This document shows positions 1-13,133 of a stretch of DNA of 13,133 nucleotides, one piece after another. Location of the stretch: assembly GCA_030453285.1 (NCBI GenBank), contig JAKDKP010000010.1, positions 1 to 13,133 on the forward strand. Reading direction: 5' to 3'. Made by a program: the position numbers and the translations under genes. This stretch comes from Propionibacteriales bacterium (lineage in GTDB: Bacteria > Actinomycetota > Actinomycetes > Propionibacteriales > Propionibacteriaceae). Under the pieces are notes generated by a model. It was given only the letters and a program-made list of their open reading frames with translations. It was not told the origin of the DNA and made no database searches. How positions within the stretch are numbered: the stretch's first letter is position 1; the number at the start of each line of letters is the position of its first letter.

Positions 1-102
1 CCGGTCGAGGTGGATGCTGGACATGGCTGCGGCCAGTGCGGCGGCGGCTTCGGTCTCCAACCGCTTGAAGAGCGGGGCCTGTCGCAACACATCGGGGTCC
101 AC
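1..102 (-). CDS. crp: Crp/Fnr-family transcriptional regulator, N-terminal fragment
   Basis: Partial gene; only the first 34 codons are inside the window, reading leftwards off the edge. The start is a GTG (complement of 100-102), chosen because a GAGGAG ribosome-binding site lies 8 bases upstream (complement of 111-116). The ATG at complement 108-110 is in another frame. The peptide begins MDPDVLRQAPLFKRLETE and continues with an Ala-rich helix and MSSIHLDR. This is the typical opening of actinobacterial Crp/Fnr regulators: an APLF segment followed by a helix leading into the cyclic-nucleotide-binding beta roll. The cNMP domain and the DNA-binding helix-turn-helix are outside the window. Family knowledge: in mycobacteria and corynebacteria crp is divergent from nth, as here, so context strongly supports the call. 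Ligand and regulon cannot be judged from this fragment. Confidence 0.8.
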   Translation of the reverse strand, partial: MDPDVLRQAPLFKRLETEAAAALAAAMSSIHLDR

Positions 103-147
103 GCGGTCATCTCCTCATCAGTCGGATTCTGCTCAAGTTTGGTGATC

Positions 148-153
148 AACATA
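148..153 (-). promoter_or_regulatory. Candidate -10 box for the crp-like gene
   Basis: On the minus strand TATGTT (complement of 148-153) lies about 45 bases upstream of the GTG start, a suitable distance for a short leader carrying the GAGGAG site. A TTGTCA sits upstream but only about 13 bases away, too close for a standard -35, so only the -10 is proposed. A TGATCA palindrome (143-148) overlaps it and could be part of an operator. I saw no convincing Crp-type TGTGA-N6-TCACA site in this gap. Confidence 0.25.
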
Positions 154-242
154 CCTAGGCTACCGCTGACAACCCGTGCAGCTTCCGGCGGTCCGTCCAT
201 CGGCGACCCACGAGCGGTGCCCGAGTCGTCGGAGCCGGGACA

Positions 243-248
243 TAGGCT
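243..248 (+). promoter_or_regulatory. -10 box of nth; arrangement suggests a leaderless mRNA
   Basis: TAGGCT at 243-248 is followed by only six bases before the ATG at 255, so transcription would begin at or next to the A of the start codon. No Shine-Dalgarno sequence precedes the ATG. A -10 box six to seven bases from the start codon is the standard signature of leaderless transcripts in actinobacteria. No clear -35 is seen. The rest of the 103-254 gap holds the crp leader, a second TAGGCT at 156-161 with no gene start near it, and nothing else I recognise. Confidence 0.5.
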
Positions 249-254
249 GAGCCC

Positions 255-992
255 ATGACCCTCGATCGCGGCGAGTCCGGTCCCGGCGTTCGGGCCGATG
301 CCGAATCACGCACGGCCCTGGTGCGGCGGGCGCGGCGGATGAACCGGATGCTGGCCGAGACCTACCCCGATGCCAGGTGCGAGTTGGACTTCACCTCCCC
401 GTACGAGCTGCTGGTCGCCACCGTGCTGTCGGCCCAGTCCACCGACAAGCGGGTGAACCTGGTCACCCCCGTGCTGTTCGCCAGCTATCCCGACCCCGGC
501 ACGATGTCCGAGGCCGATCCGGCTGCGGTGGAGGAGATCATCAAACCCACCGGCTTCTTCCGCGCCAAGACCGCGTCGGTGATCAAGTTGTCCACAACCA
601 TCTGTGACGACTTCGGCGGTGAGGTGCCCGGCACGCTCGCCGAGATGGTCACCCTGCCCGGGGTGGGCCGCAAGACCGCCAATGTCGTGCTGGGCAACGC
701 CTTCGGGGTGCCCGGACTGACCGTCGACACGCACTTCGGCCGGCTGGTTCGGCGGTTCGGGTGGACCGATCAGACCGACCCGGTGAAGGTGGAGCCCGAG
801 ATCGAGGCGCTGTTCCCCAAGACCGACTGGGTGCAGTTGTGCCACAACGTGATCTGGCATGGGCGCCGCCGCTGTCACGCCCGCAACCCCGCCTGTGGTG
901 CCTGCCCGCTGGCCGCGCTGTGTCCCTCGTACGGGGAAGGGCCCACCGATCCGGCCAAGGCGGCCAAGCTCGTACGGGAACCGCGCGGATGA
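255..992 (+). CDS. nth: Endonuclease III (DNA glycosylase / AP lyase)
   Basis: 245 residues. Base-excision repair enzyme that removes oxidised pyrimidines and cleaves at abasic sites. The helix-hairpin-helix is [12 protein letters not shown] (134-145), with the Schiff-base lysine at K140. The catalytic aspartate is D158 in VDTH. The four [4Fe-4S] cysteines C207, C214, C217 and C223 have the exact C-x6-C-x2-C-x5-C spacing of the family. The N terminus is about 25-30 residues longer than E. coli Nth, which is common in actinobacteria. Start: ATG at 255, preceded by the -10 box at 243-248 and probably leaderless. It is the first gene of a four-gene operon; its stop overlaps the next start (ATGA at 989-992). 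It is divergent from the crp-like gene, an arrangement I recall from mycobacteria. All key residues are present, so activity is expected. Confidence 0.97.
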
Positions 993-1630
993 CTCGGGTG
1001 GGGCGACTGCTCGCCTGCCTGCTGGTGCTGGGCATGCTGGCTGCCTGTCAGGAACAGTCGCCGGTCACCCGCAGGTCGTCGACCGAGCCGACCGCGGCAC
1101 CCAGTGCCCCCAGCTTCCCGACCGACGATCCGGATCTGACCCGTCAGAAGAAGGCCGCCGGGATGCCCGACTGCACGGCCGGTGCCCCCGACGTACCGGC
1201 CATCGCCGACGGATTGCCCGACGTCACCCTGCCCTGCCTGGGTGGCGGGACACCGGTCCGGCTGGCCGGTCTGCGCGGCACACCGATGGTGATCAACGTC
1301 TGGGCTCAGTGGTGCGGACCCTGCCGAACCGAGGCGCCGTATCTTGCCGAGGTATCGGCAGAATTGACCGACCGGGTGGCGTTCCTCGGCGTCGACTTCG
1401 CCGACCCGCAGGCCGAACGGGCCATCGCTTTCGCCGGCGATGCCGGCTGGAAGTATCCCCAGGTCGCCGATGACGCCAGGGTCGTCCAGGCGCCGCTGGG
1501 GATGGTGGGCCCACCGATGACGGTCCTGGTGGATGCCGAGGGTCGCATCGTCTACAAGCACCCCGGAGTGATCACCTCCTCGGATCAGTTGCGGTCCATG
1601 ATCAACGAGCGGCTGGGAGTCGCTGGATGA
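989..1630 (+). CDS. TlpA/ResA-like thioredoxin-fold lipoprotein
   Basis: 213 residues. Probable extracytoplasmic thiol-disulfide oxidoreductase anchored to the outer face of the membrane. Residues 1-20 form a lipoprotein signal ([20 protein letters not shown]) with lipobox LAAC and the lipidated cysteine at C20. A Ser/Thr/Pro-rich spacer follows (about 21-50). The thioredoxin domain has active site WCGPC at 108-112 and the cis-proline loop at GPPMT (174-178). Two further cysteines, C62 and C83, lie before the active site and could form a structural disulfide. Start: ATG at 989, overlapping the nth stop by four bases (ATGA), so translation is probably coupled; an earlier in-frame start at 761 lies inside nth and would bury the signal peptide. 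A thioredoxin-like gene in this slot after nth is known from mycobacteria. The physiological partner (cytochrome c maturation or general reduction) cannot be told. Confidence 0.9.
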
Positions 1631-2340
1631 GCCCTTCGGTTTCGGCAACGGGTGCCCTGCCGACGGCGCTGACCCCACTCGCACGGGGCCTCGCCGATCC
1701 GACCGCCACGGCACGGGTGGTGGCCCAGCGGCCAGCCCAGGGTGGCCGTGCGGCGGCAGTGCTCGTGCTGATCGAGATCGCCGGGACCGGACCGGAGATC
1801 GTCTTCGTCGAGCGGGCGGCGACCCTGCGCAACCATCCCGGTCAGATGGCCTTCCCTGGTGGAGGGGTGGACGACACCGACCCCTCGTACGAGGCGGCCG
1901 CCCTGCGGGAGGGCGAGGAGGAGATCGGCCTCGACGTTGCTGGCGTCTCGATCATGGGACGCCTCCCCGGAGCGCATGTCGCGGTCAGCGGATTCGACGT
2001 GGTGGCCGTGGTGGGTTGGTGGCACACACCGGTGCCGGTGTCGTCCGCCGACCCCGGCGAGGTGGCGCGCGTGATCCGGGTGCCCGTGGCACGACTCGTC
2101 GATCCTCGGCAGCGGGTCACCGTCCGGATCGGCAGCGGCTATCGCGGACCGGCCTTCCTGGTCGACGATCCCGACGCCCCCGACGAACCGATCATGATCT
2201 GGGGCCTGACCGCACACATCCTCGACGGAGTGCTGGAGATGGCCGGCTGGGGCCGGGCCTGGGATTCCGATCGGTACGCCGACATACCCGCGCGCTATCG
2301 CACCGATCACGCCGGGCGAGGCCGGGCCGATGATCACTGA
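1627..2340 (+). CDS. Nudix hydrolase, CoA pyrophosphatase (NudL/UPF0035) type
   Basis: 237 residues. Probably cleaves coenzyme A or acyl-CoA to phosphopantetheine derivatives and 3',5'-ADP. The CoA-Nudix signature is clear: VERAATLRNHPGQMAFPGG at 61-79 matches the L-R-x-H-x-G-Q-x-x-F-P-G-G motif of NudL/NUDT7-type enzymes. It is followed by the Nudix box core REGEEEIGL at 94-102, with the metal-binding REx2EExG glutamates. As in E. coli NudL, the VDDTD segment takes the place of the canonical first Nudix glutamate region. The N-terminal 25 residues are unassigned. Start: ATG at 1627, overlapping the preceding stop as ATGA. It sits third in the operon and overlaps the next gene by 11 bases. 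Family assignment is confident; the true substrate is inferred. Confidence 0.9.
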   Translation: MSPSVSATGALPTALTPLARGLADPTATARVVAQRPAQGGRAAAVLVLIEIAGTGPEIVFVERAATLRNHPGQMAFPGGGVDDTDPSYEAAALREGEEEIGLDVAGVSIMGRLPGAHVAVSGFDVVAVVGWWHTPVPVSSADPGEVARVIRVPVARLVDPRQRVTVRIGSGYRGPAFLVDDPDAPDEPIMIWGLTAHILDGVLEMAGWGRAWDSDRYADIPARYRTDHAGRGRADDH

Positions 2341-2971
2341 ACCGGGCACGGCGATCACCAGCGACGACCTGCCTGCACGGTGGGACACCCTGCTGCCCGG
2401 CCAGCCCGAGCTCGGCAGGGATGTGCTGCGCCGATGGTCCGAGCCGCACCGCCACTACCACACCACTGAGCATCTGGCCCACGTGCTCGCCATGATCAAC
2501 GAGCTGACCATGATCAACGAACGGGAGCTCACCGAGGTGCGCCTGGCGGCCTGGTTCCACGATGCGGTGTACGTGATCGGTGCGCCCGACAACGAGTCCG
2601 CCTCGGCCGCACTCGCTGCCAACGCACTCGACGGACTCGTCCAGCGCCCCGACGAGGTGGCCCGACTGATCATGGTCACCGCCGATCATCGCCCTCGACC
2701 CGATGATCGATCCGGTGCCCTGTTGTGTGACGCCGATCTGGCCATCCTGGCCAGTGCTCCCGCCGCGTACGACAACTATGTCGCCCAAGTGCGGGCAGAG
2801 TACGCGGCCGTGGCCGACGACGCGTTCACTGCTGGGCGGCTGACGGTGCTCACCGCGCTGCGTGCCGAAGAGCTGTTCCACACCGAACGCGGCAGGGCCT
2901 TGCGTACGCAGGCCAGGGCCAATCTCGATCGGGAAATCGCCGACCTGACCGCGAAGCTCAACGGCGGCTGA
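2330..2971 (+). CDS. Predicted HD-superfamily metal-dependent phosphohydrolase (COG4339-like)
   Basis: 213 residues, soluble. Candidate metal ligands follow the HD-fold order: H44 in HYHTTEHL (with H48), the HD doublet H77-D78 in AAWFHDAVY, H120 in VTADHRPR, and D134/D136 in LLCDADLAIL. This pattern matches a family of uncharacterised predicted phosphohydrolases; no substrate can be assigned. Start: ATG at 2330 inside the end of the Nudix gene (11-bp overlap), with a weak GGCGAGG upstream. It ends the operon, and its last 14 bases overlap the end of the convergent DMT transporter gene. Oddity: an internal 12-base repeat (CATGATCAACGA at 2491 and again at 2509, period 18) encodes MINELT-MINERE within the helix after H48. 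In mycobacteria the slot after the Nudix gene holds the membrane protease marP, which is absent here. Confidence 0.82.
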   Translation: MITEPGTAITSDDLPARWDTLLPGQPELGRDVLRRWSEPHRHYHTTEHLAHVLAMINELTMINERELTEVRLAAWFHDAVYVIGAPDNESASAALAANALDGLVQRPDEVARLIMVTADHRPRPDDRSGALLCDADLAILASAPAAYDNYVAQVRAEYAAVADDAFTAGRLTVLTALRAEELFHTERGRALRTQARANLDREIADLTAKLNGG

Positions 2972-3935
2972 ACAGCCCTTTCGGCGAAGCGATGATCATC
3001 ACCGCGACCAGGGTGAGGGCGGCGCCGATCACCGTCGTCGGCTGCAGCACGTGTCCCGGAGCTGCTGCGACGAGATCGAGCACGACCGAGGCGCACAACT
3101 GACCAGCGAGGCTCGTCAGCCCCAGCAACAGGACACCGGTGAACTTCACGATGGCCGCATTCACGGCGATGAACAGCAACCCGATCGCCCCGCCGACGTA
3201 CAGCCATGGCTCGCTCGGCAGCGGTTTGGGAGGCCCGGCCAGGACGGTGTGCACGCCGAACGCCAGGGAGAGAACGACCGTACCCACCACGAAGTTGCCG
3301 AGACTGGCCGCGGCAACACTGCTGAGCTGGCGGACCTGCCCGTTGACGGCCTGCTGGAAGGCGATCCCGAGACCGGCGACGAACGGCATGATCAACAACC
3401 ACCACGGCACGTCGGTGTCGAGGTTCGCCGACATCGCCAGCACCACCGCGACGACAGCCAGTCCGGTGCCGGCGATCCGGTGGCCGGTCAAGCGCTGACC
3501 GGGCATGGATCCCAGCCCTCGCCGATCGATCAGCAAGCCGCTGAGGGTCTGGCCGGCGACCACGGCAACGGTGAACAGGGCCACCCCCAGCAGGGTGACC
3601 GCCAACCCCTGGGAGAGCACGAGCAGGGCACCGCAGGCTCCGCCGACGAACAGCCACCATGGATGGCTGTGCGTACGCAGGGCCGTGATCACGGCGCGGG
3701 CGCCGCGACGACCGCTGGGCAGCAGGGCGGTGGCGACGGCGATGATCACCAACCCGGATCCGAACGAGATCAGCGCCGCCAGATAGCCGTCATCGCCGCG
3801 GCGCGCCAACTCGCCGTTGATGCGGGACTGGACGGCGACCGCGCCGCCACTGACAAAGGCGCAGGCCAGGCAGGCTGGGACGACCCAGCCGTGGCGCCAG
3901 CGACGGCCGAGAGATGCCGCAGAACTCGTGGTCAG
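2958..3935 (-). CDS. DMT-superfamily transporter, YdcZ/DUF606 type (non-canonical start)
   Basis: About 325 residues if started at CTG 3935. Integral membrane protein of about ten helices made of two tandem YdcZ repeats (roughly 15-160 and 170-320). The first repeat shows the characteristic VQSRINGELARR followed by GYLAALISFGSGL, and the second FQQAVNGQVRQLSSVAAASLGNF. The substrate is unknown. Start problem: no in-frame ATG, GTG or TTG precedes helix 1. The first canonical candidate is a TTG at 3809, which would delete helix 1 and half of the RINGEL motif. Upstream there is a CTG (3935-3933) overlapping the stop of the preceding gene as CTGA, the same geometry as the ATGA overlaps elsewhere in this window, giving MTTSSAASLG. 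An ACG (3929-3927) lies six bases after an AAGGA. CTG is preferred here. The 3' end overlaps the HD gene on the other strand by 14 bases. Confidence 0.82.
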   Translation of the reverse strand: MTTSSAASLGRRWRHGWVVPACLACAFVSGGAVAVQSRINGELARRGDDGYLAALISFGSGLVIIAVATALLPSGRRGARAVITALRTHSHPWWLFVGGACGALLVLSQGLAVTLLGVALFTVAVVAGQTLSGLLIDRRGLGSMPGQRLTGHRIAGTGLAVVAVVLAMSANLDTDVPWWLLIMPFVAGLGIAFQQAVNGQVRQLSSVAAASLGNFVVGTVVLSLAFGVHTVLAGPPKPLPSEPWLYVGGAIGLLFIAVNAAIVKFTGVLLLGLTSLAGQLCASVVLDLVAAAPGHVLQPTTVIGAALTLVAVMIIASPKGLFSRR

Positions 3936-4363
3936 TCCTTGGTGCGCGAGATGGCCGGGGTCTTGGCGGCGCTGGCCGCCCGTGAGGCGGCACCCTTGAC
4001 CGCGTTCACCGTCGCGGTGGCCTCGGCGACGGTCTGGTCGGTGGAGAACTTTGCCTTGCTCATCGAGGCCTTGCCGATCAGCGCGAGAATGCCGCAGATC
4101 ACCAGCATGACGCCACCGACGATCAGGAAGGCCGCCCAGGCAGGGAGAACCAGGGCCAGAGCCAGCGCGCCGCCGATCAGGAGGATGCCCAGGGCGTACA
4201 GGGCGAGCACACCGGCTCCGGCGAACATGCCGGCACCGATCCCGGCGTTCTTCGCCGGCGGAATCAGCTCGGCCTTGGCGAGTTCGATCTCGCCGCGCAC
4301 CATCACCTTCACGTCTTCGCTGATGTCCTTGACGAGGTCGCCCACTTCACGTTGGCCAGCCAT
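3932..4363 (-). CDS. Small two-helix membrane protein, actinobacterial holin-X / DUF1469 type
   Basis: 143 residues. An amphipathic N-terminal helix carries the family motif MVRGEIELAKAEL (21-33), followed by two hydrophobic segments (about 43-70 and 72-98) and a Lys/Ala/Thr-rich tail (100-143). Such proteins are annotated as putative actinobacterial holin-X or phage-holin superfamily but are chromosomal and widespread; no lytic role is implied and the function is unknown. Start: ATG at complement 4363, with a good GGAAGGAG site just upstream. A longer frame starting at 4873 runs antisense-like through nhaA in the wrong frame and was discarded. It lies between nhaA (72-bp gap with its own candidate promoter) and the DMT transporter (stop overlapping CTG). 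From memory, a protein of this type also lies near marP/acs in mycobacteria (Rv3669), so the neighbourhood may be conserved. Confidence 0.85.
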   Translation of the reverse strand: MAGQREVGDLVKDISEDVKVMVRGEIELAKAELIPPAKNAGIGAGMFAGAGVLALYALGILLIGGALALALVLPAWAAFLIVGGVMLVICGILALIGKASMSKAKFSTDQTVAEATATVNAVKGAASRAASAAKTPAISRTKD

Positions 4364-4380
4364 CGCGCTCTCCTTCCGTT

Positions 4381-4397
4381 CCGGGGCGAGTCCCCGG
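4381..4397. promoter_or_regulatory. Small GC hairpin in the leader of the holin-like gene
   Basis: CCGGGG-CGAGT-CCCCGG is a perfect 6-bp stem with a 5-base loop, located between the proposed -10 (4416-4421) and the ribosome-binding site of the holin-X type gene. There is no T-run, so it is not a typical terminator for nhaA. It may act as an mRNA hairpin just upstream of the ribosome-binding site, or have no function. Confidence 0.3.
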
Positions 4398-4415
4398 CGG
4401 TGTTGGTCAGGGCTG

Positions 4416-4446
4416 AGCCTAGTGGTATCGGCGATCACTGTGCCAA
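4416..4446 (-). promoter_or_regulatory. Candidate promoter of the holin-X type gene
   Basis: On the minus strand TTGGCA (complement of 4441-4446) is followed after 19 bases by TAGGCT (complement of 4416-4421). The -35 lies inside the last codons of nhaA. The spacer is slightly long. The same TAGGCT hexamer precedes nth and acs in this window. Confidence 0.45.
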
Positions 4447-5655
4447 CGTGCCCCGTCGGGCGCGGGCCCGGGTGCGGAAGCGGAGGCTGATCATGGCCAC
4501 GCAGGCTGCGATGAGGGAGGCCACCAGGACGGCAGCCTTGGCCCGATCGGCCTCGACCGGATCGCCGGCGAAGGCCAGATCGGCCACCAGCAACGCAACG
4601 GTGAAGCCGATCCCGGCCAGCACACCGACCGACATCACCTCGCGCCAGGTGAGTCCGCCGTGCAACTCTGCGCCGGTGATCTTGGCGGTGAGCCAGGCGC
4701 CACCGGTGACGCCGATCACCTTGCCGATGACCAGTCCCAGGATGATGCCCAGTGGCGCGGGCTGGGTGAAGACCTCCAGCAGTGCGCTCGGGCTGACCGT
4801 CACCCCTGCGGCGAAGAGGGCGAACACCGGCACGGCGAACCCGGCAGAGACTGGCCGCCAGAAGTGTTCCCACCGGTCCACCGGGTCATTGCCTTCATGG
4901 GCGGAGGTGCGGGTCAGCAGGCCGAGCAGGACACCGGCGATCGTGGCATGCACGCCGGAGTCGTACATGAACCACCAGCAGGCAACGAACAGGGGGAGGT
5001 GCAGCCACCACTTGTCGATCCGCTTCCATTGCAGGAGTCCCCAGATCAGCGCGCAGACGGCGGCGATCGCCAGGCTGATCCAGTTCACCGAGGCGGTGAA
5101 CACCACCGCGATCACCAGGATCGCCCCAAGGTCGTCAACGATGGCGAGCGTGAGCAGGAAGGCCCGGAGGCTGGCCGGCAGTTTGGGTGCCGCGACCGCG
5201 AGGACGGCCAGTGCGAAGGCGATGTCGGTTGCCATCGGAATCGCCCAGCCCTGCGCGAGGCCACCGGGCGTGGCCACATTGATCACCAGATAGATCAGGG
5301 CGGGGACGCCCATGCCGCACAGTGCGGCCGCGATCGGCACCAGTGCCTGACGGGGTCTGGCGAGCGAGCCGGCGACGAACTCCCGTTTGAGCTCCAGACC
5401 AGCCACGAAGAAGAAGATGGTCAACAGTCCGTCCGAGGCCCAGTGCTCGAGGCTCATCGGGCCGAGTTCAATGCCGCGGACGGCCTCGTACGAGACGGTG
5501 CCCAGATTGGCCCACAGCAGCGCGGTGATTGCGGCCACGAGCATCAGCACACCGCCGACGGTTTCCGAGCGCAGGACATCGGCGATCGCCAAGGTGTCCT
5601 GGTTGTCGCCGGGGGAGAAGAGGGTGATCCGGCGGCGGTTGTGCTTCGAGGTCAT
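4435..5655 (-). CDS. nhaA: Na+/H+ antiporter NhaA
   Basis: 406 residues, close to the family length (E. coli 388). Inner-membrane antiporter exporting Na+ or Li+ in exchange for protons; roles in pH and sodium homeostasis. The diagnostic motifs are present: FFFVAGLELKREF near residues 81-93; MATDIAFALAVL with D144 (equivalent to E. coli D133); and IVDDLGAI with the ion-binding pair D174-D175 (E. coli D163-D164). IGKVIG carries the conserved helix-10 lysine. Start: ATG at complement 5655, preceded by GAAGGA; an upstream GTG at 5682 would add nine residues and has no ribosome-binding site. It lies downstream of the oxidoreductase gene with a 95-bp gap holding its own candidate -10, so it is probably transcribed separately. 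Nothing in the sequence shows how it is regulated. Confidence 0.96.
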   Translation of the reverse strand: MTSKHNRRRITLFSPGDNQDTLAIADVLRSETVGGVLMLVAAITALLWANLGTVSYEAVRGIELGPMSLEHWASDGLLTIFFFVAGLELKREFVAGSLARPRQALVPIAAALCGMGVPALIYLVINVATPGGLAQGWAIPMATDIAFALAVLAVAAPKLPASLRAFLLTLAIVDDLGAILVIAVVFTASVNWISLAIAAVCALIWGLLQWKRIDKWWLHLPLFVACWWFMYDSGVHATIAGVLLGLLTRTSAHEGNDPVDRWEHFWRPVSAGFAVPVFALFAAGVTVSPSALLEVFTQPAPLGIILGLVIGKVIGVTGGAWLTAKITGAELHGGLTWREVMSVGVLAGIGFTVALLVADLAFAGDPVEADRAKAAVLVASLIAACVAMISLRFRTRARARRGTLAQ

Positions 5656-5711
5656 CGCGTCCTTCGGGGTCGGTGGCTGCACTTGCCGACCAGACTTCCC
5701 GGCGCACCCGT

Positions 5712-5723
5712 GGCCCGCGGGCC
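5712..5723. promoter_or_regulatory. 12-bp perfect palindrome at the presumed nhaA transcription start
   Basis: GGCCCGCGGGCC, self-complementary over 12 bases, begins about seven bases downstream of the proposed nhaA -10 box. The position would suit a repressor site, but GC-only palindromes arise readily in such DNA, so this is tentative. Confidence 0.25.
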
Positions 5724-5729
5724 GTGGTC

Positions 5730-5735
5730 AGTCTA
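5730..5735 (-). promoter_or_regulatory. Candidate -10 box of nhaA
   Basis: TAGACT on the minus strand, 74 bases upstream of the nhaA ATG and just after the stop of the oxidoreductase gene. No good -35 is visible. It matches the TAGnCT form of the other proposed -10 boxes here. Confidence 0.4.
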
Positions 5736-5750
5736 GTGGTTGTGCGGCAG

Positions 5751-6782
5751 TCAGTCGGCCACGCGCACGATCACCTTGCCGAAGTTGCGACCCTCGAGCA
5801 GCCCGGTGAATGCCTCGACGGCGTTGTCCAAGCCGTCGGTGACGTCCTCGCGGTAGGAGATCGTGCCGTCGGCGACCAACGGGGCGATCTCGGCCAGGAA
5901 GGCTGCGGTCTGGGTCGGGGCGAACTCGCGTTGGATGAAGCCGCGGATCGTCAGGCTCCGCGCAAGGATCCGCCCCAGCAGGGCCGGCGACCGATCCGGT
6001 CCGTCCGGCAGGGAGGTGCTGTTGTAGTTGGCGACCAGTCCGCAGACCGGCACCCGCGCGTACGTGTTGAGCCGCGGCAGCACCGCATCCCACACCTTAC
6101 CGCCGACGTTCTCGAAGTAGACGTCGATGCCGTCGGGCGTGGCGCCGGTCAGCTGATCGACGAAGTCGTCGGCGCGGTGGTCGATGGCCGCATCGAAGCC
6201 CAACTCGCGCAGGTGGGCCACCTTTTCCGGGCCACCGGCGATCCCGACCGGACGGGCTCCACGGAGCTTGGCGATCTGACCCACCATCGAGCCCACCGGT
6301 CCGGTCGCGGCCGCCACCACGACGGTCTCGCCGGCTTGTGGCTTGCCGATGTTCTCCAGCCCGGACCAGGCGGTGAAGCCCGGCATGCCGAGCACGCCGA
6401 GGGCTGCCGAGCGGGGGAGTCCCTTGTCCAGGATGTGAGTGGCCGAGATGGGGAGCAGGTTCTTCGCCGACTCCACCGAGTGGGTCTGCCAGCCGGCGTA
6501 CCCGAGAACCAGATCGCCCTTGCCGAACGCCGGATCGGCGCTCTCCAGCACGCGGGAAACCGTACCGCCGACGATGGTCTGGCCCAGTTCGATCGGCGAG
6601 GTGTACGACTCGGCCTCGCTCATCATGCCGCGCATGTACGGGTCGAGCGAGAGGTCGAGGGTCTGCAGCAACACCTCACCGGCGGAGGGAGTGCGGAGTT
6701 CGGTGGTCTCGGTGCGGAAGTTCTCCGCCGTCGGTGCCCCGTGGGGACGTGACGCCAGGACGATTCGAGTGCTTGTGGTCAT
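5751..6782 (-). CDS. NADP-dependent oxidoreductase, zinc-free MDR family (CurA/PTGR-like)
   Basis: 343 residues. Medium-chain reductase family that uses NADPH to reduce alpha,beta-unsaturated ketones or aldehydes. Features seen: N-terminal RIVLASRPHGAPTAENF (6-22), the family signature SLDPYMRGMM (45-54), and the hinge MPGFTAWSGLENIG (133-146). The Rossmann loop is AAATGPVGSMVGQIAKLRG (157-175) with GIAGG after the second strand (180-184), then YFENVGG (222-228). No structural-zinc cysteine cluster is present, as expected. Start: ATG at complement 6782, with GGAGG four bases upstream; an in-frame ATG at 6848 would add 22 residues with no homology character. It is a single gene upstream of nhaA. 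The substrate is unknown; a role in detoxifying reactive carbonyls is only an inference from the family. Confidence 0.93.
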   Translation of the reverse strand: MTTSTRIVLASRPHGAPTAENFRTETTELRTPSAGEVLLQTLDLSLDPYMRGMMSEAESYTSPIELGQTIVGGTVSRVLESADPAFGKGDLVLGYAGWQTHSVESAKNLLPISATHILDKGLPRSAALGVLGMPGFTAWSGLENIGKPQAGETVVVAAATGPVGSMVGQIAKLRGARPVGIAGGPEKVAHLRELGFDAAIDHRADDFVDQLTGATPDGIDVYFENVGGKVWDAVLPRLNTYARVPVCGLVANYNSTSLPDGPDRSPALLGRILARSLTIRGFIQREFAPTQTAAFLAEIAPLVADGTISYREDVTDGLDNAVEAFTGLLEGRNFGKVIVRVAD

Positions 6783-6849
6783 GCTGCCTCCAACAGGGCC
6801 ACGTCGCCGAACATTCCGACCGGGATCGGAGCAACACCAGGATGGCAAC

Positions 6850-6855
6850 TAGGCT
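6850..6855 (+). promoter_or_regulatory. Possible leaderless-type -10 box upstream of the arginase remnant
   Basis: TAGGCT, seven bases before an ATG at 6863. It shares TAGGCTGAG with the nth promoter at 243. However, the ATG opens a frame different from the arginase remnant, so it could be a relic or a chance match. Confidence 0.25.
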
Positions 6856-7194
6856 GAGGCGCATGTCCTCGAACTCATCGACAGCACCGACCTCACGCTC
6901 GTTGCGTCGGGACCGGGATTCGCCGATCGACTGGGCCAGGCCATCGCCGGGCGTCCGGTCTACATCCACATCGACTGCGATGTTCTCGAACCCGGCATCG
7001 TGCCCACCGACTACCATGTTCCCGGTGGTCTCTCCCTCGACGACCTCCACGAGGCCGCCACAGCAGTCGCCGCGAACATGATCGTCGGTGTCGAGATCGG
7101 CGAGCTGGAGACCAGCACCGGAGCCGAGGATCTCGGCCCGCTGCTGAACGCGCTGGCCCCCATCCTGGATCGAATCGCGCAACAGTCCCGCTGA
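6853..7194 (+). pseudogene. 5'-truncated arginase/agmatinase-family remnant
   Basis: Open frame of 113 codons after an in-frame TAG (6850-6852), with no ATG at its start. The C-terminal part of an arginase-family metalloenzyme is recognisable: VYIHIDCDVLEPG (near codons 35-47) contains the second-half D-x-D metal motif, followed by VPTDYHVPGGLSLDDL and then MIVGVEIGELET, the conserved late strand and acidic position. The first half of the enzyme, with the GGDHS and DAHxD metal motifs, is missing: upstream sequence runs straight into the start of the divergent oxidoreductase gene. The only in-frame canonical start inside the conserved part is GTG 7000, which would leave 64 residues. I read it as a decayed gene that lost its 5' half. 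A functional short protein is unlikely but not excluded. Confidence 0.75.
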
Positions 7195-7206
7195 GGTTCC
7201 GAGGCT

Positions 7207-7232
7207 TCGACGCGACGAACTGAGCGCGTCGA
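7207..7232. repeat. Inverted repeat downstream of the arginase remnant
   Basis: TCGACGCG, ten-base loop, CGCGTCGA: a perfect 8-bp stem just after the remnant's stop and facing the end of acs. There is no T-tract, so it could be a weak bidirectional terminator or part of the neighbouring repeat element. The sequence TTCGTCGCGTCGAAGCC on its minus strand resembles the next repeat. Confidence 0.5.
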
Positions 7233-7246
7233 CACCTCCACGTTGG

Positions 7247-7285
7247 GGTGCTTCGACGCACTCGTTCCTCGCTTGCTCAACGACC
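7247..7285. repeat. Imperfect palindromic intergenic repeat element
   Basis: On the minus strand it begins GGTCGTTGAGCAAGCGAGG and ends GTGCGTCGAAGCACC. This GTTGAGC...GTCGAA pattern is the style of the short dispersed intergenic repeats common in actinobacterial genomes (recognised from memory; copy number here cannot be tested). The ends GGT/ACC are inverted. The word TGGGGTGCT occurs at 7244 and again at 7289, suggesting a partial second unit up to about 7315. No gene lies between 7195 and 7324. Confidence 0.45.
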
Positions 7286-7324
7286 TGGTGGGGTGCTCGT
7301 TTGCTCGACGGCCAAGGAGTCCCC

Positions 7325-9283
7325 TCAGTCCTCCTTGCTGGTGGCCATGTTGTCCTTGATCAGGTTCATCACCGAGTCGTCCTGCAGGGTGGTGACGTCA
7401 CCCACTTCGCGGTTTTCGGCGATGTCGCGGAGCAGCCGTCGCATGATTTTGCCCGAGCGAGTCTTGGGCAGTTCCTCGACGACCATGATCTGTCGTGGCT
7501 TGGCGATCGGACCGATCTCCTTGGCGACATGGTTGCGCAGGTCGGCGACGATGTCGGCGCCCTCCTCGGTTGCAATGTTGGTGCTGCGGAGGATCACGAA
7601 GGCCACGATGGCCTGACCGGTCGTCTCGTCGGTCGCACCGACGACCGCCGCCTCGGCGACGCGCGGGTGCGAGACCAGGGCGGACTCGATCTCGGTGGTC
7701 GACATCCGGTGACCCGACACGTTCATCACATCGTCGACCCGGCCGAGCAGCCAGATGTCGCCGTCCTCGTCCTTCTTGGCGCCGTCGCCGGCGAAGTACA
7801 TACCTTCGAAGCGCGACCAGTAGGTGTCCTTGAACCGCTCGTCGTCACCCCACAGGGTGCGCAGCATCGCCGGCCACGGCTCACGGATCACCAGGTAGCC
7901 GCCGTGACCGTTCTCCACCGAACGGCCCTCCTCATCGACGACGTCGACGACCACGCCGGGCACCGGGCGCATGGCCGCACCGGGCTTGCCGTTGGCCACG
8001 CCGGGCATCGGGCTGATCATGTGCATACCGGTCTCGGTCTGCCACCAGGTGTCGACCACCGGCGTCTTGTCGCCACCAATGTTCGTGCGGTACCAGACGT
8101 ACGCCTCGGGATTGATCGGCTCACCGACCGACCCCAGCACGCGCAGCGAGGACAGGTCGAACTTGGCCGGGATCTCTGCGCCCCACTTCATGAAGGTACG
8201 GATCGCGGTCGGGGCGGCGTACAGGATGGAGACCTTGTATTTCTCGATGATCTCCCACCAGCGGCCCTGATGTGGGGTGTCCGGGGTGCCCTCGTACATC
8301 ACCGAGGTGGCGCCGTTGGCGAGCGGACCGTAGACGAGGTAGGTGTGGCCGGTGACCCAGCCGATGTCGGCGGCGGTCCAGAAGACGTCGTCGTCCTTGA
8401 GATCGAAGGTCGCCCAGTGGGTGTACGCGGTCCCCACCAGGTAGCCGCCGGTGGTGTGCAGGATGCCCTTCGGCTTGCCGGTCGAGCCCGAGGTGTACAT
8501 CACGTACAACGGATGCTCGGCCGGGAACGCCTGTGGGGTGTGTTCGCTCGACGCCGTGGCGACCGTGTCGTCCCACCAGACGTCGCGACCCTCGACCATC
8601 TCGGTGTCCTGGCCGGTGCGCTTGATCACCAGCACCTTCTTGACCTCGGGACACGTTGTCAGCGCCTCGTCCACGGCCGGCTTGAGGGCAGAGGCGGAGC
8701 CGCGACGATAGCCGCCGTCGGCGGTGATCACGACCTCGACCTCGCAGTCGTGGATGCGGGTGGCCAGTGCGTCGGCGGAGAACCCGCCGAAGACGACCAC
8801 GTGCGGGGCGCCCAGCCGGGCACACGCCAGGATGGACACGACGGCCTCGGGAATCATCGGCAGATAGATCGCCACCCGATCGCCGGCTTCCACCCCGAGC
8901 TCGGTGAGCGCGTTGGCGGCCTGGCACACCTCCTTGGTCAACTCGGCGTAGGTGATGGCACGGGAGTCGCCCGGCTCGCCCTCGAAGTGGAACGCCACCT
9001 TGTCGCCATCGCCGGCCTCGACATGTCGATCAAGGCAGTTGTACGCGGCATTGAGTGTGCCGTCGGCATACCACTTCGCAAAGGGAGGATTGGACCAGTC
9101 GACGACCTCGGTCGGCTGGGTCTCCCAGGCGAGCCGCTCGGCCTGCCTGGCCCAGAAAGCGTCACGGTCGGCGTCGGCCTCGGCAAAGGTCTCCTCCGTC
9201 ACGTTCGCGTTGGCGGCCAGTTCCTCGGGCGGCGCGAACCGGCGTTCCTCGGACAACAGATTGGACAGAGCGTCGTCACTCAC
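7325..9283 (-). CDS. acs: Acetyl-CoA synthetase (AMP-forming)
   Basis: 652 residues, the same length as the enterobacterial enzyme. Activates acetate with ATP to acetyl-AMP and then acetyl-CoA. Motifs: adenylate-binding loop YTSGSTGKPKG (263-273); SVGEPINPEA (385-394); WWQTETG (413-419) with W414, the tryptophan that restricts the pocket to acetate. Further on are the hinge region GRVDDVMNVSGHR (514-526) and the C-terminal PKTRSGK (606-612), whose K612 is the catalytic lysine controlled by acetylation in the family. Start: GTG at complement 9283, chosen over the ATG at 9301 because GAGGAGG lies nine bases before it and the 652-residue length then matches. The protein begins MSDDALSNLLSEERRF. 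It is transcribed alone, convergent with the arginase remnant and divergent from the RND pump. No deacetylase gene is adjacent. Confidence 0.98.
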   Translation of the reverse strand: MSDDALSNLLSEERRFAPPEELAANANVTEETFAEADADRDAFWARQAERLAWETQPTEVVDWSNPPFAKWYADGTLNAAYNCLDRHVEAGDGDKVAFHFEGEPGDSRAITYAELTKEVCQAANALTELGVEAGDRVAIYLPMIPEAVVSILACARLGAPHVVVFGGFSADALATRIHDCEVEVVITADGGYRRGSASALKPAVDEALTTCPEVKKVLVIKRTGQDTEMVEGRDVWWDDTVATASSEHTPQAFPAEHPLYVMYTSGSTGKPKGILHTTGGYLVGTAYTHWATFDLKDDDVFWTAADIGWVTGHTYLVYGPLANGATSVMYEGTPDTPHQGRWWEIIEKYKVSILYAAPTAIRTFMKWGAEIPAKFDLSSLRVLGSVGEPINPEAYVWYRTNIGGDKTPVVDTWWQTETGMHMISPMPGVANGKPGAAMRPVPGVVVDVVDEEGRSVENGHGGYLVIREPWPAMLRTLWGDDERFKDTYWSRFEGMYFAGDGAKKDEDGDIWLLGRVDDVMNVSGHRMSTTEIESALVSHPRVAEAAVVGATDETTGQAIVAFVILRSTNIATEEGADIVADLRNHVAKEIGPIAKPRQIMVVEELPKTRSGKIMRRLLRDIAENREVGDVTTLQDDSVMNLIKDNMATSKED

Positions 9284-9318
9284 GGCGTACGGCCTCCTCA
9301 TTGATGGCTTGGACGATC

Positions 9319-9324
9319 AGCCTA
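9319..9324 (-). promoter_or_regulatory. Candidate -10 box of acs
   Basis: TAGGCT on the minus strand, preceded by GGGT, 35 bases before the GTG start. This leaves a leader of about 30 bases carrying the GAGGAGG ribosome-binding site. No recognisable -35 is present, so an activator could be needed. Confidence 0.42.
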
Positions 9325-9343
9325 ACCCTGCTCCTGGGGAGAG

Positions 9344-9372
9344 TTGGAGCCCGGCAGGGCACGCTCTACAGT
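9344..9372 (+). promoter_or_regulatory. Promoter of the RND permease gene
   Basis: TTGGAG (9344-9349), exactly 17 bases, then TACAGT (9367-9372): each hexamer matches four of six consensus positions at ideal spacing. Transcription would begin near 9379, giving an mRNA leader of about 280 bases. It is divergent from, and only about 20 bases away from, the proposed acs -10, so the two promoters could influence each other. Confidence 0.5.
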
Positions 9373-9398
9373 GTGAGCGCTTGCGACCACGGGGGACC

Positions 9399-9412
9399 GT
9401 GACATCTGTCAC
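9399..9412. promoter_or_regulatory. Perfect palindrome, possible operator of the RND pump gene
   Basis: GTGACA-TC-TGTCAC, a perfect 6-2-6 inverted repeat about 20 bases downstream of the predicted transcription start of the pump gene. This is a classic position for a dimeric repressor. No regulator gene is adjacent in the window. It could also affect acs. Confidence 0.42.
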
Positions 9413-9484
9413 CGCTGAGTCGGGCGTGAGGCATGCGGATCGATGTGGGGCACCACTCGAGATGGCATCGCAGGCCGGGCACGA

Positions 9485-9571
9485 TGGGGGATGTTCGGAC
9501 CGAGGTCTCGCTGGTGTCCCCTTGGGGACCACTCAGGGTCACCACCGGTGAATCCGGTGGGACATCCCCTG
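9485..9571 (+). promoter_or_regulatory. Predicted three-stem structured leader upstream of the RND gene
   Basis: Three nested stems can be drawn. P1 pairs GGGGATGT (9487-9494) with ACATCCCC (9562-9569), eight Watson-Crick pairs extendable by two G-U pairs. P2 is GTCCC-CTTG-GGGAC (9516-9529), a stem closed by a CUUG tetraloop. P3 is CCACCGG-TGAAT-CCGGTGG (9542-9560), seven pairs stacked next to P1. Together they form a three-way junction in the untranslated leader, about 86 bases before the GTG start. It matches no riboswitch I can name with confidence. The rest of 9373-9656 holds the palindrome at 9399 and no convincing gene. Confidence 0.4.
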
Positions 9572-9656
9572 CACGGCCCGGCAAGTACGACAGCAGAATC
9601 CGCACCACCGGTCAGCGACGACCAGCCCGTACGTCCACACCTCCCGAAGGACTCCA

Positions 9657-12600
9657 GTGAGCTTCCTGACCCGTCTCAGCCTCGCCAACCGCGCGGTGAT
9701 CACCCTGTTGTGCCTGCTGGTGATCGGCACCGGTGTCTATGCGACCTCTGCGTTGAAGCAGGAACTGATTCCGTCCATGGAGTTCCCGCAGGCATTCATC
9801 ACCGCCAGCTATCCGGGTGCTTCCCCCGAGGTGGTCGAGCGCAACGTCACCAAGCCCATCGAGGATTCCGTGCGGGGGGTCTCCGGTGTCACTAAGACGT
9901 CCTCGAACTCAGCCTCGGGGATGACGCAGGTGACCGTGCAGTGGGACTTCGGCATCAAGTCCGATGACATGAAGGGTGAGTTGGAGTCGGCCGTCGACGC
10001 CTTGCAGTTGCCGGAGGATGTCGAGCCGAAGGTCACCACCTTCAGTGTCGACGCCACCCCGGTGTTGTCGATGGCGGTCTCCTCGGACCTGGACAATGCC
10101 AAGCTTTCCCAGGCCCTCGAGGACGTGGTGGTGCCGAGGCTCAATGGTCTGCCGGACGTGTCCGAGGCCAAGGTGAGCGGCCAGGAGGTCCGCGAGGTCG
10201 TGGTCACCCTGCGTCAGAAGGATCTCGACAAGTACAAGGTCGATCCGTCCCAGATTTCCCAGATCTTCCAGTCGTACGGGGCCCAGATCCCCGCCGGTGG
10301 TCTCGATGAGGGATCCCGTCAGGTCAATGTGCAGGTCGGCAAGACCCTCAACAACGCCAAAGACCTGGCCAATCTGCGTCTGCAGGGGACCGACGGCCCG
10401 GTAAAGCTGTCCCAGGTCGCCGACGTGAAGGACCAGGCCGCCGAATCCACCGGGGTTTCGCGGGTCAACGGACGCCCCTCGCTCAGCCTGAACATCAGCA
10501 AGACCACCGAGGGCAACACCGTCGCGGTCGCCAATGAGGTCAAGGAGTTGTTGCCGGCGCTGGCCGACGAGATCGGCCAGAACACCACCTTCGACGTGCT
10601 GTTCGACCAGGCGCCCTACATCGAGGACTCGATCAAGGATCTGAGCACCGAGGGCATCCTGGGACTGGTGATGGCGGTGATTGTCATCCTGTTGTTCCTG
10701 TGGTCGGTCCGGCCGACGTTGATCACCGCCATCTCCATCCCGCTGTCCCTGCTGATCGCGATGATCGGCCTGTGGCTGGGCGGTTACTCGCTCAACATGC
10801 TCACCCTCGGGGCCCTCACGGTGGCCATCGGGCGAGTCGTCGACGACTCCATCGTCGTCATCGAGAACATCAAACGACCCCAGGCCACCGGGGGGCCGGT
10901 GCAATCCCGGTTGATCATCAAGGCGGTGAAGGGGGTCGCCGGTGCGGTCACCGCCTCCACCTTGACCACCGCCGCGGTGTTCCTGCCGATCGCGCTCGTT
11001 GGTGGGCAAGTGGGCGAGCTGTTCCGCCCGTTTGCCGTCACGGTGGGAGTGGCCCTGATGGCGTCGCTGCTGGTGGCCCTGACTATCGTTCCGGTGCTGG
11101 CCTCATGGTTCATGCGACCCTCGCGTCGTCCGGTCAATCCGGACAAGCAGGCCGCCCGGGACGCGAAGGCCGAGGCGCTGGCCGCCAAGGAGCACGAGCG
11201 CCACGCCCTGGAGGCGCAGCGCACCGAATCCCGCCTGCAGGCCAAGGAGGACAAGCTGCGCGGCAAGTGGGAGCGTCGCGGGCTCGACCAGTTCGACATG
11301 GATCAGCGGGCGGCCGCCTTTCGGGCCAAGCAGGGCAGCCAGAACGTGCTGCCGGAGGATCATGACGCGCACGAGTCGGCCGAGACGCCGATGCAGCGTG
11401 GCTATCTGCCGGTCCTGCGGTGGACCCTGCGCCATCCGGTGATCACCATCGTGGCGGCCCTGCTGGTGTTCGTGCTGACGATGGGGATGAGTTCGTTCCT
11501 GAAGACCGACTTCATCGGCGATCAGGGCGACGAGAGCCTGCAGGTGACCCAGACCCTGCCCAAGGGCACCACCCTCGAAGCCACGGACAAGGCGTCGAAG
11601 CAGGTCGAGACTGTACTGGCCAACGATGCCTCGGTGCAGACGTACCAGACGACGATCGGCGGCGGGGACATGATGGGCGCCGGTGCGTCCGCCAACGAGG
11701 CCACCTTCACCATCACCCTCGTGCCTGAGAGCGCTGGCAACGAGGTCATGCAGCGCCTGCGCGAGCAGCTCGATCCGCTGCCCGACGACGTCGGAGAGAT
11801 CGAAGTCTCGCTCGCTGGCGGTGGCGCCGGTGGCGACGACGTTGCCGTACGGGTGGAGGGCCAGGACGAGGCTGCGGTCACCAAGGGCACTCAACAGGTC
11901 GTCGACATGATGGCGGGCCAGCCCGGTCTGACGCAGGTCACCAGCGACCTCGCCGAGCAGCAGACGATCTTCCAGGTCGACATCGATGAGGACAAGGCCG
12001 CCAAGGCCGGCATGAACCAGGCGACCATCGGGATGGCGGTCACCGAGGCGCTCCGCGGCACCGAACTGGGCACCATCCAGATCGATGGCCGGGACCAGAG
12101 CGTCACCCTGCGCTCCCGTACACCGGTGAAGACGAAGGCCCAACTGGAGAATCTGGAGCTGCCGGTCACCCAGAAGCAGACGGCCGACGCGCAGAAGAAG
12201 GCCAGTGACGACCTCGAGGACGAGCAGGACGCCGAGGCCGACCGTCAGGAGCAGAAGGCCCAGGAGCAGGCCGACAAGCAGAAGCAGTCGATGCGGGAGC
12301 AGCGGGCCGAGCTGGCCGATCAGCTCCAGCAGATGTTGGACCAACTCGAGGAGGCACGCAACGCCCCGGCGATGCCGCCGATGCCACCCGGCCAGATGCC
12401 ACCGGCCGATCCCGGCGCGGCCAAGAAGGCCCAGGTTGACCAGCTGGAGGAGCAGGTCGACCAGTTGCGTGAGCAGCTCGATCAGATGGATGAGCAGGCC
12501 GCCGACGCCGAGCAGCAGGAGGTCGATCAGCGAGAGCAGCAGCAGCGGCAGGAGGATCTGCAACAGCGCTCCAAGGACATCACCGACATCGTGGCCGACC

Positions 12601-13133
12601 CGCTGAAGTTGAAGCAGGTGGCCAAGGTCAAGGAGATCGACCAGCCCGCCTCGATCAGCAGGATCGACGGTGCTCGTGCCGTCACGGTCAGTGCCACACC
12701 GACCGGCGACAACCTGGGTCAGACCACGGTGGATCTGACGAACGGTCTGACCACCTTGGAACTGCCCAGCGGGGTGAGCGCCAACATTGCCGGTGTCTCC
12801 CAGCAGCAGGACGAAGCGTTCGGCCAGCTCTTCCTGGCGATGGCCGTGGCGATCGCGATCGTGTACATGATCATGGTGGCGACGTTCAAGTCACTGATCC
12901 AACCGCTGATCCTGCTGGTGTCGGTGCCGTTCGCAGCGACCGGTGCCATTGGGGCGCTGTTGATCACCAACACCCCCCTCGGTATTCCGGCCATGATCGG
13001 CTTGTTGATGTTGATCGGTGTGGTGGTGACCAATGCGATTGTGCTGATCGATCTGATCAACCACTATCGAGGACAGGGGGCGTCGGTGGACGACGCCGTC
13101 GTGCACGGTGCCCGCCTCCGACTGCGGCCGATC
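9657..13133 (+). CDS. Large RND-family efflux permease with inserted coiled-coil hairpin (3' end outside window)
   Basis: First 1159 residues, no stop. Proton-driven exporter of the HAE/SwrC-like type. Start: GTG at 9657 with GAAGGA five bases upstream. Helix 1 is about 11-31; the first extracytoplasmic domain (32-330) contains SYPGASPEVVERNVTKPIED. Helices 2-6 span about 333-486, with the proton-relay pair D396-D397 in GRVVDDSIVVIENI. An unusually long charged linker (487-581) precedes helix 7 (593-615). The second extracytoplasmic domain follows, up to helix 8 (1057-1077), then helices 9-10 with IGVVVTNAIVLID. An insertion at about 840-980 replaces the short loop before the QPASISRIDGARAVTVSA strand: two Gln/Glu/Asp-rich helices (842-901 and 923-975) with heptads such as VDQLEEQVDQLREQ, joined by a Pro/Met-rich turn (903-920). 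Helices 11-12 lie beyond the edge. No adaptor or outer-membrane partner is visible. Substrate unknown. Confidence 0.93.
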   Translation, partial: MSFLTRLSLANRAVITLLCLLVIGTGVYATSALKQELIPSMEFPQAFITASYPGASPEVVERNVTKPIEDSVRGVSGVTKTSSNSASGMTQVTVQWDFGIKSDDMKGELESAVDALQLPEDVEPKVTTFSVDATPVLSMAVSSDLDNAKLSQALEDVVVPRLNGLPDVSEAKVSGQEVREVVVTLRQKDLDKYKVDPSQISQIFQSYGAQIPAGGLDEGSRQVNVQVGKTLNNAKDLANLRLQGTDGPVKLSQVADVKDQAAESTGVSRVNGRPSLSLNISKTTEGNTVAVANEVKELLPALADEIGQNTTFDVLFDQAPYIEDSIKDLSTEGILGLVMAVIVILLFLWSVRPTLITAISIPLSLLIAMIGLWLGGYSLNMLTLGALTVAIGRVVDDSIVVIENIKRPQATGGPVQSRLIIKAVKGVAGAVTASTLTTAAVFLPIALVGGQVGELFRPFAVTVGVALMASLLVALTIVPVLASWFMRPSRRPVNPDKQAARDAKAEALAAKEHERHALEAQRTESRLQAKEDKLRGKWERRGLDQFDMDQRAAAFRAKQGSQNVLPEDHDAHESAETPMQRGYLPVLRWTLRHPVITIVAALLVFVLTMGMSSFLKTDFIGDQGDESLQVTQTLPKGTTLEATDKASKQVETVLANDASVQTYQTTIGGGDMMGAGASANEATFTITLVPESAGNEVMQRLREQLDPLPDDVGEIEVSLAGGGAGGDDVAVRVEGQDEAAVTKGTQQVVDMMAGQPGLTQVTSDLAEQQTIFQVDIDEDKAAKAGMNQATIGMAVTEALRGTELGTIQIDGRDQSVTLRSRTPVKTKAQLENLELPVTQKQTADAQKKASDDLEDEQDAEADRQEQKAQEQADKQKQSMREQRAELADQLQQMLDQLEEARNAPAMPPMPPGQMPPADPGAAKKAQVDQLEEQVDQLREQLDQMDEQAADAEQQEVDQREQQQRQEDLQQRSKDITDIVADPLKLKQVAKVKEIDQPASISRIDGARAVTVSATPTGDNLGQTTVDLTNGLTTLELPSGVSANIAGVSQQQDEAFGQLFLAMAVAIAIVYMIMVATFKSLIQPLILLVSVPFAATGAIGALLITNTPLGIPAMIGLLMLIGVVVTNAIVLIDLINHYRGQGASVDDAVVHGARLRLRPI

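Follow-up and report, generated by a model that had tools for sequence, protein, structure and literature searches.

A predicted coiled-coil hairpin at the docking tip of an AcrB-type RND permease from Propionibacteriaceae

Introduction

Coiled-coil extensions of resistance-nodulation-division (RND) pumps have been described in mycobacterial MmpL4, MmpL5 and MmpL10 (HAE-2), in which a long antiparallel hairpin emerges from the extracytoplasmic loop between transmembrane helices 7 and 8 (TM7 and TM8) of a pump with 12 such helices. In MmpL5 each half contains a single porter domain; the protein lacks a docking domain, carries its insert in the second porter domain (PD2) and needs MmpS5 (PMC12501195 and PMC8277102; papers are cited by PMC number). 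Efflux depends on its coiled coil, which was modelled as a six-helix barrel of ~13 nm (PMC12501195), and the work on MmpL10 supports a tubular extension and reports that the coiled coil drives oligomerisation (PMC12183618). Here we examine a gene for an HAE-type RND permease of the AcrB fold in a stretch of 13,133 nucleotides from a Propionibacteriales bacterium of the family Propionibacteriaceae (assembly GCA_030453285.1, contig JAKDKP010000010.1, positions 1 to 13,133 of the forward strand; hereafter the window). By prediction, this permease has a similar hairpin in its TM7-TM8 loop, comparable in size (147 residues, against 196 in MmpL5; PMC12501195). The host, unlike MmpL5 in its published description, is AcrB-like, and the insert is at the tip of a docking hairpin.

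The alpha-hairpins of the adaptors AcrA and LipC and the barrel of TolC share a working idea with this insert, helical hairpins extending the exit path beyond the pump; no sequence relationship to them was found and, unlike those structures, the hairpin considered here belongs to the permease chain itself. In a TolC docking model of AcrB, D795 (beta2 hairpin) and D256 (beta1 hairpin) are at the interface, and cross-linking of both hairpins to TolC is cited in the same paper (PMC2292822). One phylogenetic study of HAE-1 pumps left Gram-positive bacteria out of its database (PMC10872679), and the matches listed in our search of the open-access literature comprised MmpL coiled coils and Gram-negative pumps, with no coiled coil in a Gram-positive AcrB-type pump among them. 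As the best explanation of the whole, we propose, with a probability of roughly one half, that the insert is a one-protein coiled-coil exit extension of an AcrB-type trimer.

Results

The permease gene occupies 9657..13133 of the window (+ strand); the open reading frame continues to the contig end, which cuts off the C-terminus and leaves 1159 residues. The protein matches the ACR_tran profile, has the AcrB fold along its entire chain, and shares with AcrB, MexB and MdtB (HAE-1) the two large loops, the Asp pair in TM4 and the Arg corresponding to AcrB R971. Between anchor residues 835 and 983, which align with AcrB 791 and 799, the window permease has 147 residues compared with 7 in E. coli AcrB (MAFFT, 73 sequences); in G003, the closest relative in that alignment (65% identical), the same two anchors are separated by 167. 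An earlier note, made by a model from the letters of the window, had placed an extra segment between LENLELPVTQ (residues 830-839; 12144..12173, +) and a return segment, and the alignments confirm it: the whole insert spans residues 836-982 (12162..12602, +) and leads into DPLKLKQVAKV (residues 981-991; 12597..12629, +). The PVT motif of the entry segment is common in the class of coiled-coil inserts defined below.

The alignments put the insert at the tip of the AcrB 791-799 hairpin, that of D795 and beta2. Since it aligns with this hairpin, it should sit on the apex of the pump, on the C-terminal docking subdomain. Judged by alignment, the site says more than the earlier note could have known, being that of an AcrB hairpin placed at the TolC interface. 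The twin of this hairpin in loop 1, AcrB beta1 with D256 (assignment from PMC2292822; AcrB 250-263), is a short turn in the window (residues 242-251; 10380..10409, +) and does not exceed 20 residues in any member of the coiled-coil type.

AlphaFold2 (AF2) was run on the full chain and on the excised segment, and both jobs predict a helical hairpin. In the full chain, arm 1 is a single helix of 64 residues (839-902; 12171..12362, +), the Pro/Met/Gly-rich tip loop (903-918; 12363..12410, +) has no helix and a low predicted local distance difference test (pLDDT) score, and arm 2 (919-975; 12411..12581, +) is modelled as helices 919-940 and 943-975. In the excised segment the helices are 839-902 and 919-973, and pLDDT reaches its maximum, 87-93, in the half of each arm nearest the tip. 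The insert lies between TM7 and TM8, in an extracytoplasmic loop of the fold; on this topology and the AF2 models, a cytoplasmic or disordered segment was rejected. The two helices and the Pro/Met/Gly turn read from the sequence by the earlier note, which had asked for AlphaFold modelling, are thus recovered, its lengths of about 60 and 53 residues being slightly short. The hairpin of up to roughly 80-90 angstroms that it proposed is also slightly exceeded by a 64-residue helix, at ~96 angstroms. The best profile match of the insert in the PDB was lamin (E 4.4e-4), a generic coiled coil.

To classify relatives, we called an insert coiled-coil type when it had at least 120 residues, less than 20% Gly plus Pro and at least 10% large hydrophobic residues; 170 of 272 aligned sequences fall in this class, with four fragmentary or ambiguous rows set aside. 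Heptads had been noted at 927-947, and they are real and conserved: over 64 non-redundant relatives, the hydrophobic peaks of arm 2 fall at 927, 930, 934, 937, 941, 944, 948 and 951, a spacing of three to four, and the periodicity exceeds that of column shuffles (p 0.006). The window insert on its own has a modest periodicity (p 0.023), and values above 0.05 occur in some relatives' inserts (e.g. L061, 0.14; L091, 0.27). From base to tip the fraction of Leu, Ile, Val, Met and Phe climbs from 0.08 to 0.24 in arm 1 and from 0.12 to 0.22 in arm 2. The lengths of the two arms covary weakly (Spearman 0.30, permutation fraction 0.008; 64 sequences, uncorrected for kinship). In L055 and L137 (a Micropruina metagenome-assembled genome), arm 2 is scrambled and has an ambiguous base, probably through sequencing error, and both were excluded from the statistics.

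Cysteines in the 170 coiled-coil-type inserts number either zero (117 inserts) or two (53), never one or three; counting each of 154 distinct inserts once, 105 have no cysteine and 49 have the pair, which is found in 9 of the 64 non-redundant inserts. The centre of the pair is at 0.51-0.53 of the insert length, so that the cysteines flank the hairpin tip and support the placing of the tip loop, and in 169 of 170 sequences the two extracytoplasmic loops contain no other cysteine. Examples with the pair are L062, L071, L072, L075, L078, L080, L129, P0062 and P0089; the window's own tip has no cysteine. This pattern, zero or two cysteines centred mid-insert, is the one expected of a tip disulfide; the pair in this part of the family resembles C591-C597 of MmpL5 (PMC12501195).

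Constraint on the insert was measured in pairs of close relatives, no locus contributing more than two, drawn from 109 candidates; some of the coiled-coil pairs are near-duplicates. The ratio of nonsynonymous to synonymous substitution rates (dN/dS) of the insert was below 1 in all 34 coiled-coil pairs (0.08-0.75) and exceeded that of the core in 27. These pairs had 0-31 gap positions, with nine or fewer in 28 of 34, whereas seven pairs with low-complexity inserts had 6-80 gaps over 36-62 aligned residues. As dN/dS was 0.31-0.70 in the five low-complexity pairs where it was computable, it lies below 1 in both kinds and does not separate them; length conservation does. The faster evolution of coiled-coil inserts relative to the core favours a reading in which the tip, with no TolC to meet, tolerates junk, so that the insert would be a neutral, largely unstructured expansion, and other actinobacteria do hold other, mostly low-complexity, inserts at the same tip (the C-site) and at the loop-1 twin (the N-site). 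We nevertheless consider this very improbable as an account of the present insert: the coiled-coil inserts differ in composition and form one clade (below), their arm-2 heptads are conserved, the tip cysteine pair is all-or-none, length is near-constant between close relatives, and the excised segment yields confident helices.

Across the coiled-coil clade, insert length ranges from 137 to 226 residues. The relative P0003, full-length at 1241 residues and 84% identical to the window permease, bears the insert, and it and 118 other listed relatives (the best of 7983 scored, hence biased to close kin) have inserts of 142-206 residues, on which ground chance or artefact was rejected as a source. 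Among 62 loci of the family, 35 are coiled-coil type, 17 short and 7 low-complexity, with 3 set aside. In a second set, which overlaps the first and takes the 80 best of 565 confirmed loci in named genomes, 15 are coiled-coil type, 61 short and 3 low-complexity, with 1 set aside. In those 61 actinobacterial loci the insert site has eight residues or fewer, so an equivalent segment in all HAE homologues is ruled out. Named carriers include Micropruina, Enemella, Propioniciclava, Brevibacterium and Microbacterium resistens, to which the source names of the protein search add Naumannella, Granulicoccus, Mariniluteicoccus, Saxibacter, Agilicoccus and Dermatophilaceae. A profile of the insert matched 38 of 147 family genomes, in 11 of 29 genera, pump-like matches occurring in 65 of the 147. 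Across the class it matched 2 of 296 genomes, both Propionibacteriaceae, which is a lower bound given that the phylum has further known carriers. One genome had a second strong profile match (G150:C173:2652-3209; E 5.9e-28, frame 1130), so the pump is probably present there twice. Weak matches (E 1e-10 to 3e-9) in G125:C48, G089:C10 and G007:C28 fall in frames of 623, 432 and 664 residues, which are perhaps other coiled-coil proteins.

A FastTree phylogeny was built from 89 of the 272 sequences, thinned to less than 68% identity, with insert sites removed and six rows left out; it is limited by the method and by the long branches of AcrB and L116. On this core tree the coiled-coil class falls into a single clade (support 98, one change), mostly of Propionibacteriaceae together with some Brevibacterium, Microbacterium and other relatives. 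The breadth check that the earlier note had suggested places the insert in one clade, most other measured actinobacterial homologues having a short loop and some a low-complexity insert. Low-complexity inserts need three changes on the same tree, and the sister of the coiled-coil clade is a group of Brevibacterium pumps with such inserts (support 91); relaxed constraint may therefore explain how the insert began.

The 272 sequences include 10 low-complexity inserts at the C-site, all rich in Gly, Ala, Ser, Pro, Gln or Thr, and 17 N-site inserts of at least 25 residues. The idea that the latter are further coiled coils was dropped, nearly all being low-complexity and rich in Gly, Ala, Ser, Pro or Gln (the exceptions are L176 and part of L204, which may hold a short helix). 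Long stretches of Gly, Ala, Ser, Gln, Pro and Thr occur in other actinobacterial pumps at the N-site (L110, L111, L120) and the C-site (L087, L141, L162). Loci L106, L107, L119 and L121 have short C-site tips and long C-terminal extensions, their frames running to 1330-1690 residues or more and, in three cases, beyond the fetched stretch.

The outer-membrane partner family OEP (TolC) was found in none of eight genomes, seven of them insert carriers (the eighth, G088, is not known to carry the insert); six of the eight are at least 90% complete, and the control search was positive in 7 of 14 named genomes. In the lack of an OEP match these genomes differ from those of tripartite HAE-1 systems. 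No adaptor and no MmpS was seen in a Pfam scan of 30 neighbour genes from 13 loci, three of these genes having no Pfam family; the MmpS profile was not run on the genomes. Adaptor proteins of the HlyD_D23 type are nevertheless encoded in 5 of 7 genomes, elsewhere than at the pump locus, and PF00529 matched in 2 of 7 at E 1e-3, one of them above its cut-off. These findings bear on a reading in which the hairpin serves as a docking platform for an unlinked partner, be it an MmpS-like protein, a lipoprotein adaptor or a wall factor. We hold this to be distinctly unlikely: neither HlyD_D23 nor PF00529 matched in the window genome (G000, only 83% complete) or in G003, its nearest complete relative, no adaptor lies among the scanned neighbours, and the pump is the only gene common to the window and any of the 13 neighbourhoods (crude gene finder). 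A conserved partner gene was rejected on this last ground. The hairpin may replace an adaptor, as the earlier note suggested; the empty OEP and neighbour searches speak for this and the HlyD_D23 proteins against it.

Regulators of the TetR, MarR, LysR and GntR kinds adjoin several pumps; some neighbourhoods share a MarR regulator (L161, L218, L221) or a carbonic anhydrase (L214, L217). In the window itself, where the contig end leaves no downstream gene in view, the divergent neighbour of the pump is an acetyl-CoA synthetase. The permease has a second extension, the cytoplasmic TM6-TM7 linker (residues 489-579, ~91 residues; 11121..11393, +) with a long charged helix (495-541 in the AF2 model), which ranges from 15 to 115 residues over 119 relatives and is ~20 in many. 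At the column of AcrB Lys940 (window residue 1125), 258 of 272 aligned sequences, the window included, have Thr, and both Asp and the Arg of the relay columns are kept in nearly all. We take AcrB Asp407, Asp408, Lys940 and Arg971 to be the proton-relay residues; the substitution, with the other three kept, suggests a modified relay.

Discussion

The exit extension that we favour would work as follows. In its monoderm actinobacterial host the pump would be an HAE/AcrB-type exporter that works as a trimer and is driven by protons. The tip of its C-terminal docking hairpin, which in Gram-negative pumps is placed at the TolC interface, would be extended into an antiparallel coiled-coil hairpin of ~90-100 angstroms. 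Three hairpins per trimer would give six helices, most likely bundled above the funnel exit, and the bundle would move the substrate, or at least the exit mouth, off the membrane and into the peptidoglycan zone; the exit would be shifted to ~16-17 nm from the membrane (70 plus ~96 angstroms), close to the 18 nm reported for MmpL5 (PMC12501195). A single polypeptide would thereby take on part of the job of AcrA and TolC. Of this picture, the sequences establish the insert with its site, clade and conserved features, structure prediction provides the helical hairpin on the outer side of the membrane, and trimer, bundle, conduit and lack of a partner are inferred. By analogy with MmpL4/5/10, we infer a six-helix exit tube in place of adaptor and TolC, at another site and in another RND subfamily. 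The independence from the MmpL4/5 solution that the earlier note had suggested is supported by the different site, the MmpL5 insert lying in PD2 of a pump with no docking domain (PMC12501195); a review suggests that MmpL inserts are unrelated to funnel-domain inserts of RND pumps (PMC8277102), which is consistent with separate origins. Overall, the interpretation given in that note is supported. The fullest form of the proposal, a one-gene trans-wall duct in which the TolC-facing hairpins form a six-helix tube, its tip locked by a disulfide in some members and its origin and site separate from those of MmpL4/5/10, we advance tentatively, as somewhat less than an even chance.

Several points weigh against an exit tube. 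Despite strong hydrophobic columns near the tip, the whole-arm heptad test of arm 1 against column shuffles was not significant (p 0.43). In the full model the pLDDT of the mid-arm stretches (871-900 and 921-950) is only 51-67, and the predicted template modelling scores of the two AF2 models are only 0.66 and 0.50; the models are also of single chains, so that the outward direction of the hairpin rests on homology of position. To these are added the HlyD_D23 proteins, the elevated insert dN/dS and its failure to tell the two kinds of insert apart. It was a direct-docking model that put the AcrB hairpins at the TolC interface, and 'TolC-docking' may overstate the contact. In later electron cryo-microscopy structures an adaptor bridges the gap between AcrB and TolC, and the hairpin contact may be indirect; the apical position of the insert is independent of whether the AcrB hairpin touches TolC directly. 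The MmpL5 tube itself was judged too short to span the whole periplasm (PMC12501195), and the coiled coil of MmpL4 was seen ~60 degrees off the trimer axis (PMC12803245).

That off-axis position, the oligomerisation driven by the MmpL10 coiled coil (PMC12183618) and the 137 to 226 residues spanned by the clade, a range that a spacer would easily tolerate, would suit a stalk for trimerisation or wall contact (a spacer or peptidoglycan tether) with no conduit, the substrate leaving at the funnel and diffusing. The docking domain already links protomers in AcrB-type pumps (PMC8277102), so that a trimer clamp alone is not obviously needed, and the insert is located at the exit end of the pump; we regard the stalk as unlikely.

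An exit extension of the kind proposed bears on how RND pumps of cells without an outer membrane move their cargo across the wall. Coiled-coil extensions would then have arisen in RND pumps a second time, separately from MmpL, and the docking tip stands out as an insertion hot spot. The clade and its relatives, divided among coiled coil, low-complexity insert and short loop, lend themselves to natural comparison and offer a single-protein target.
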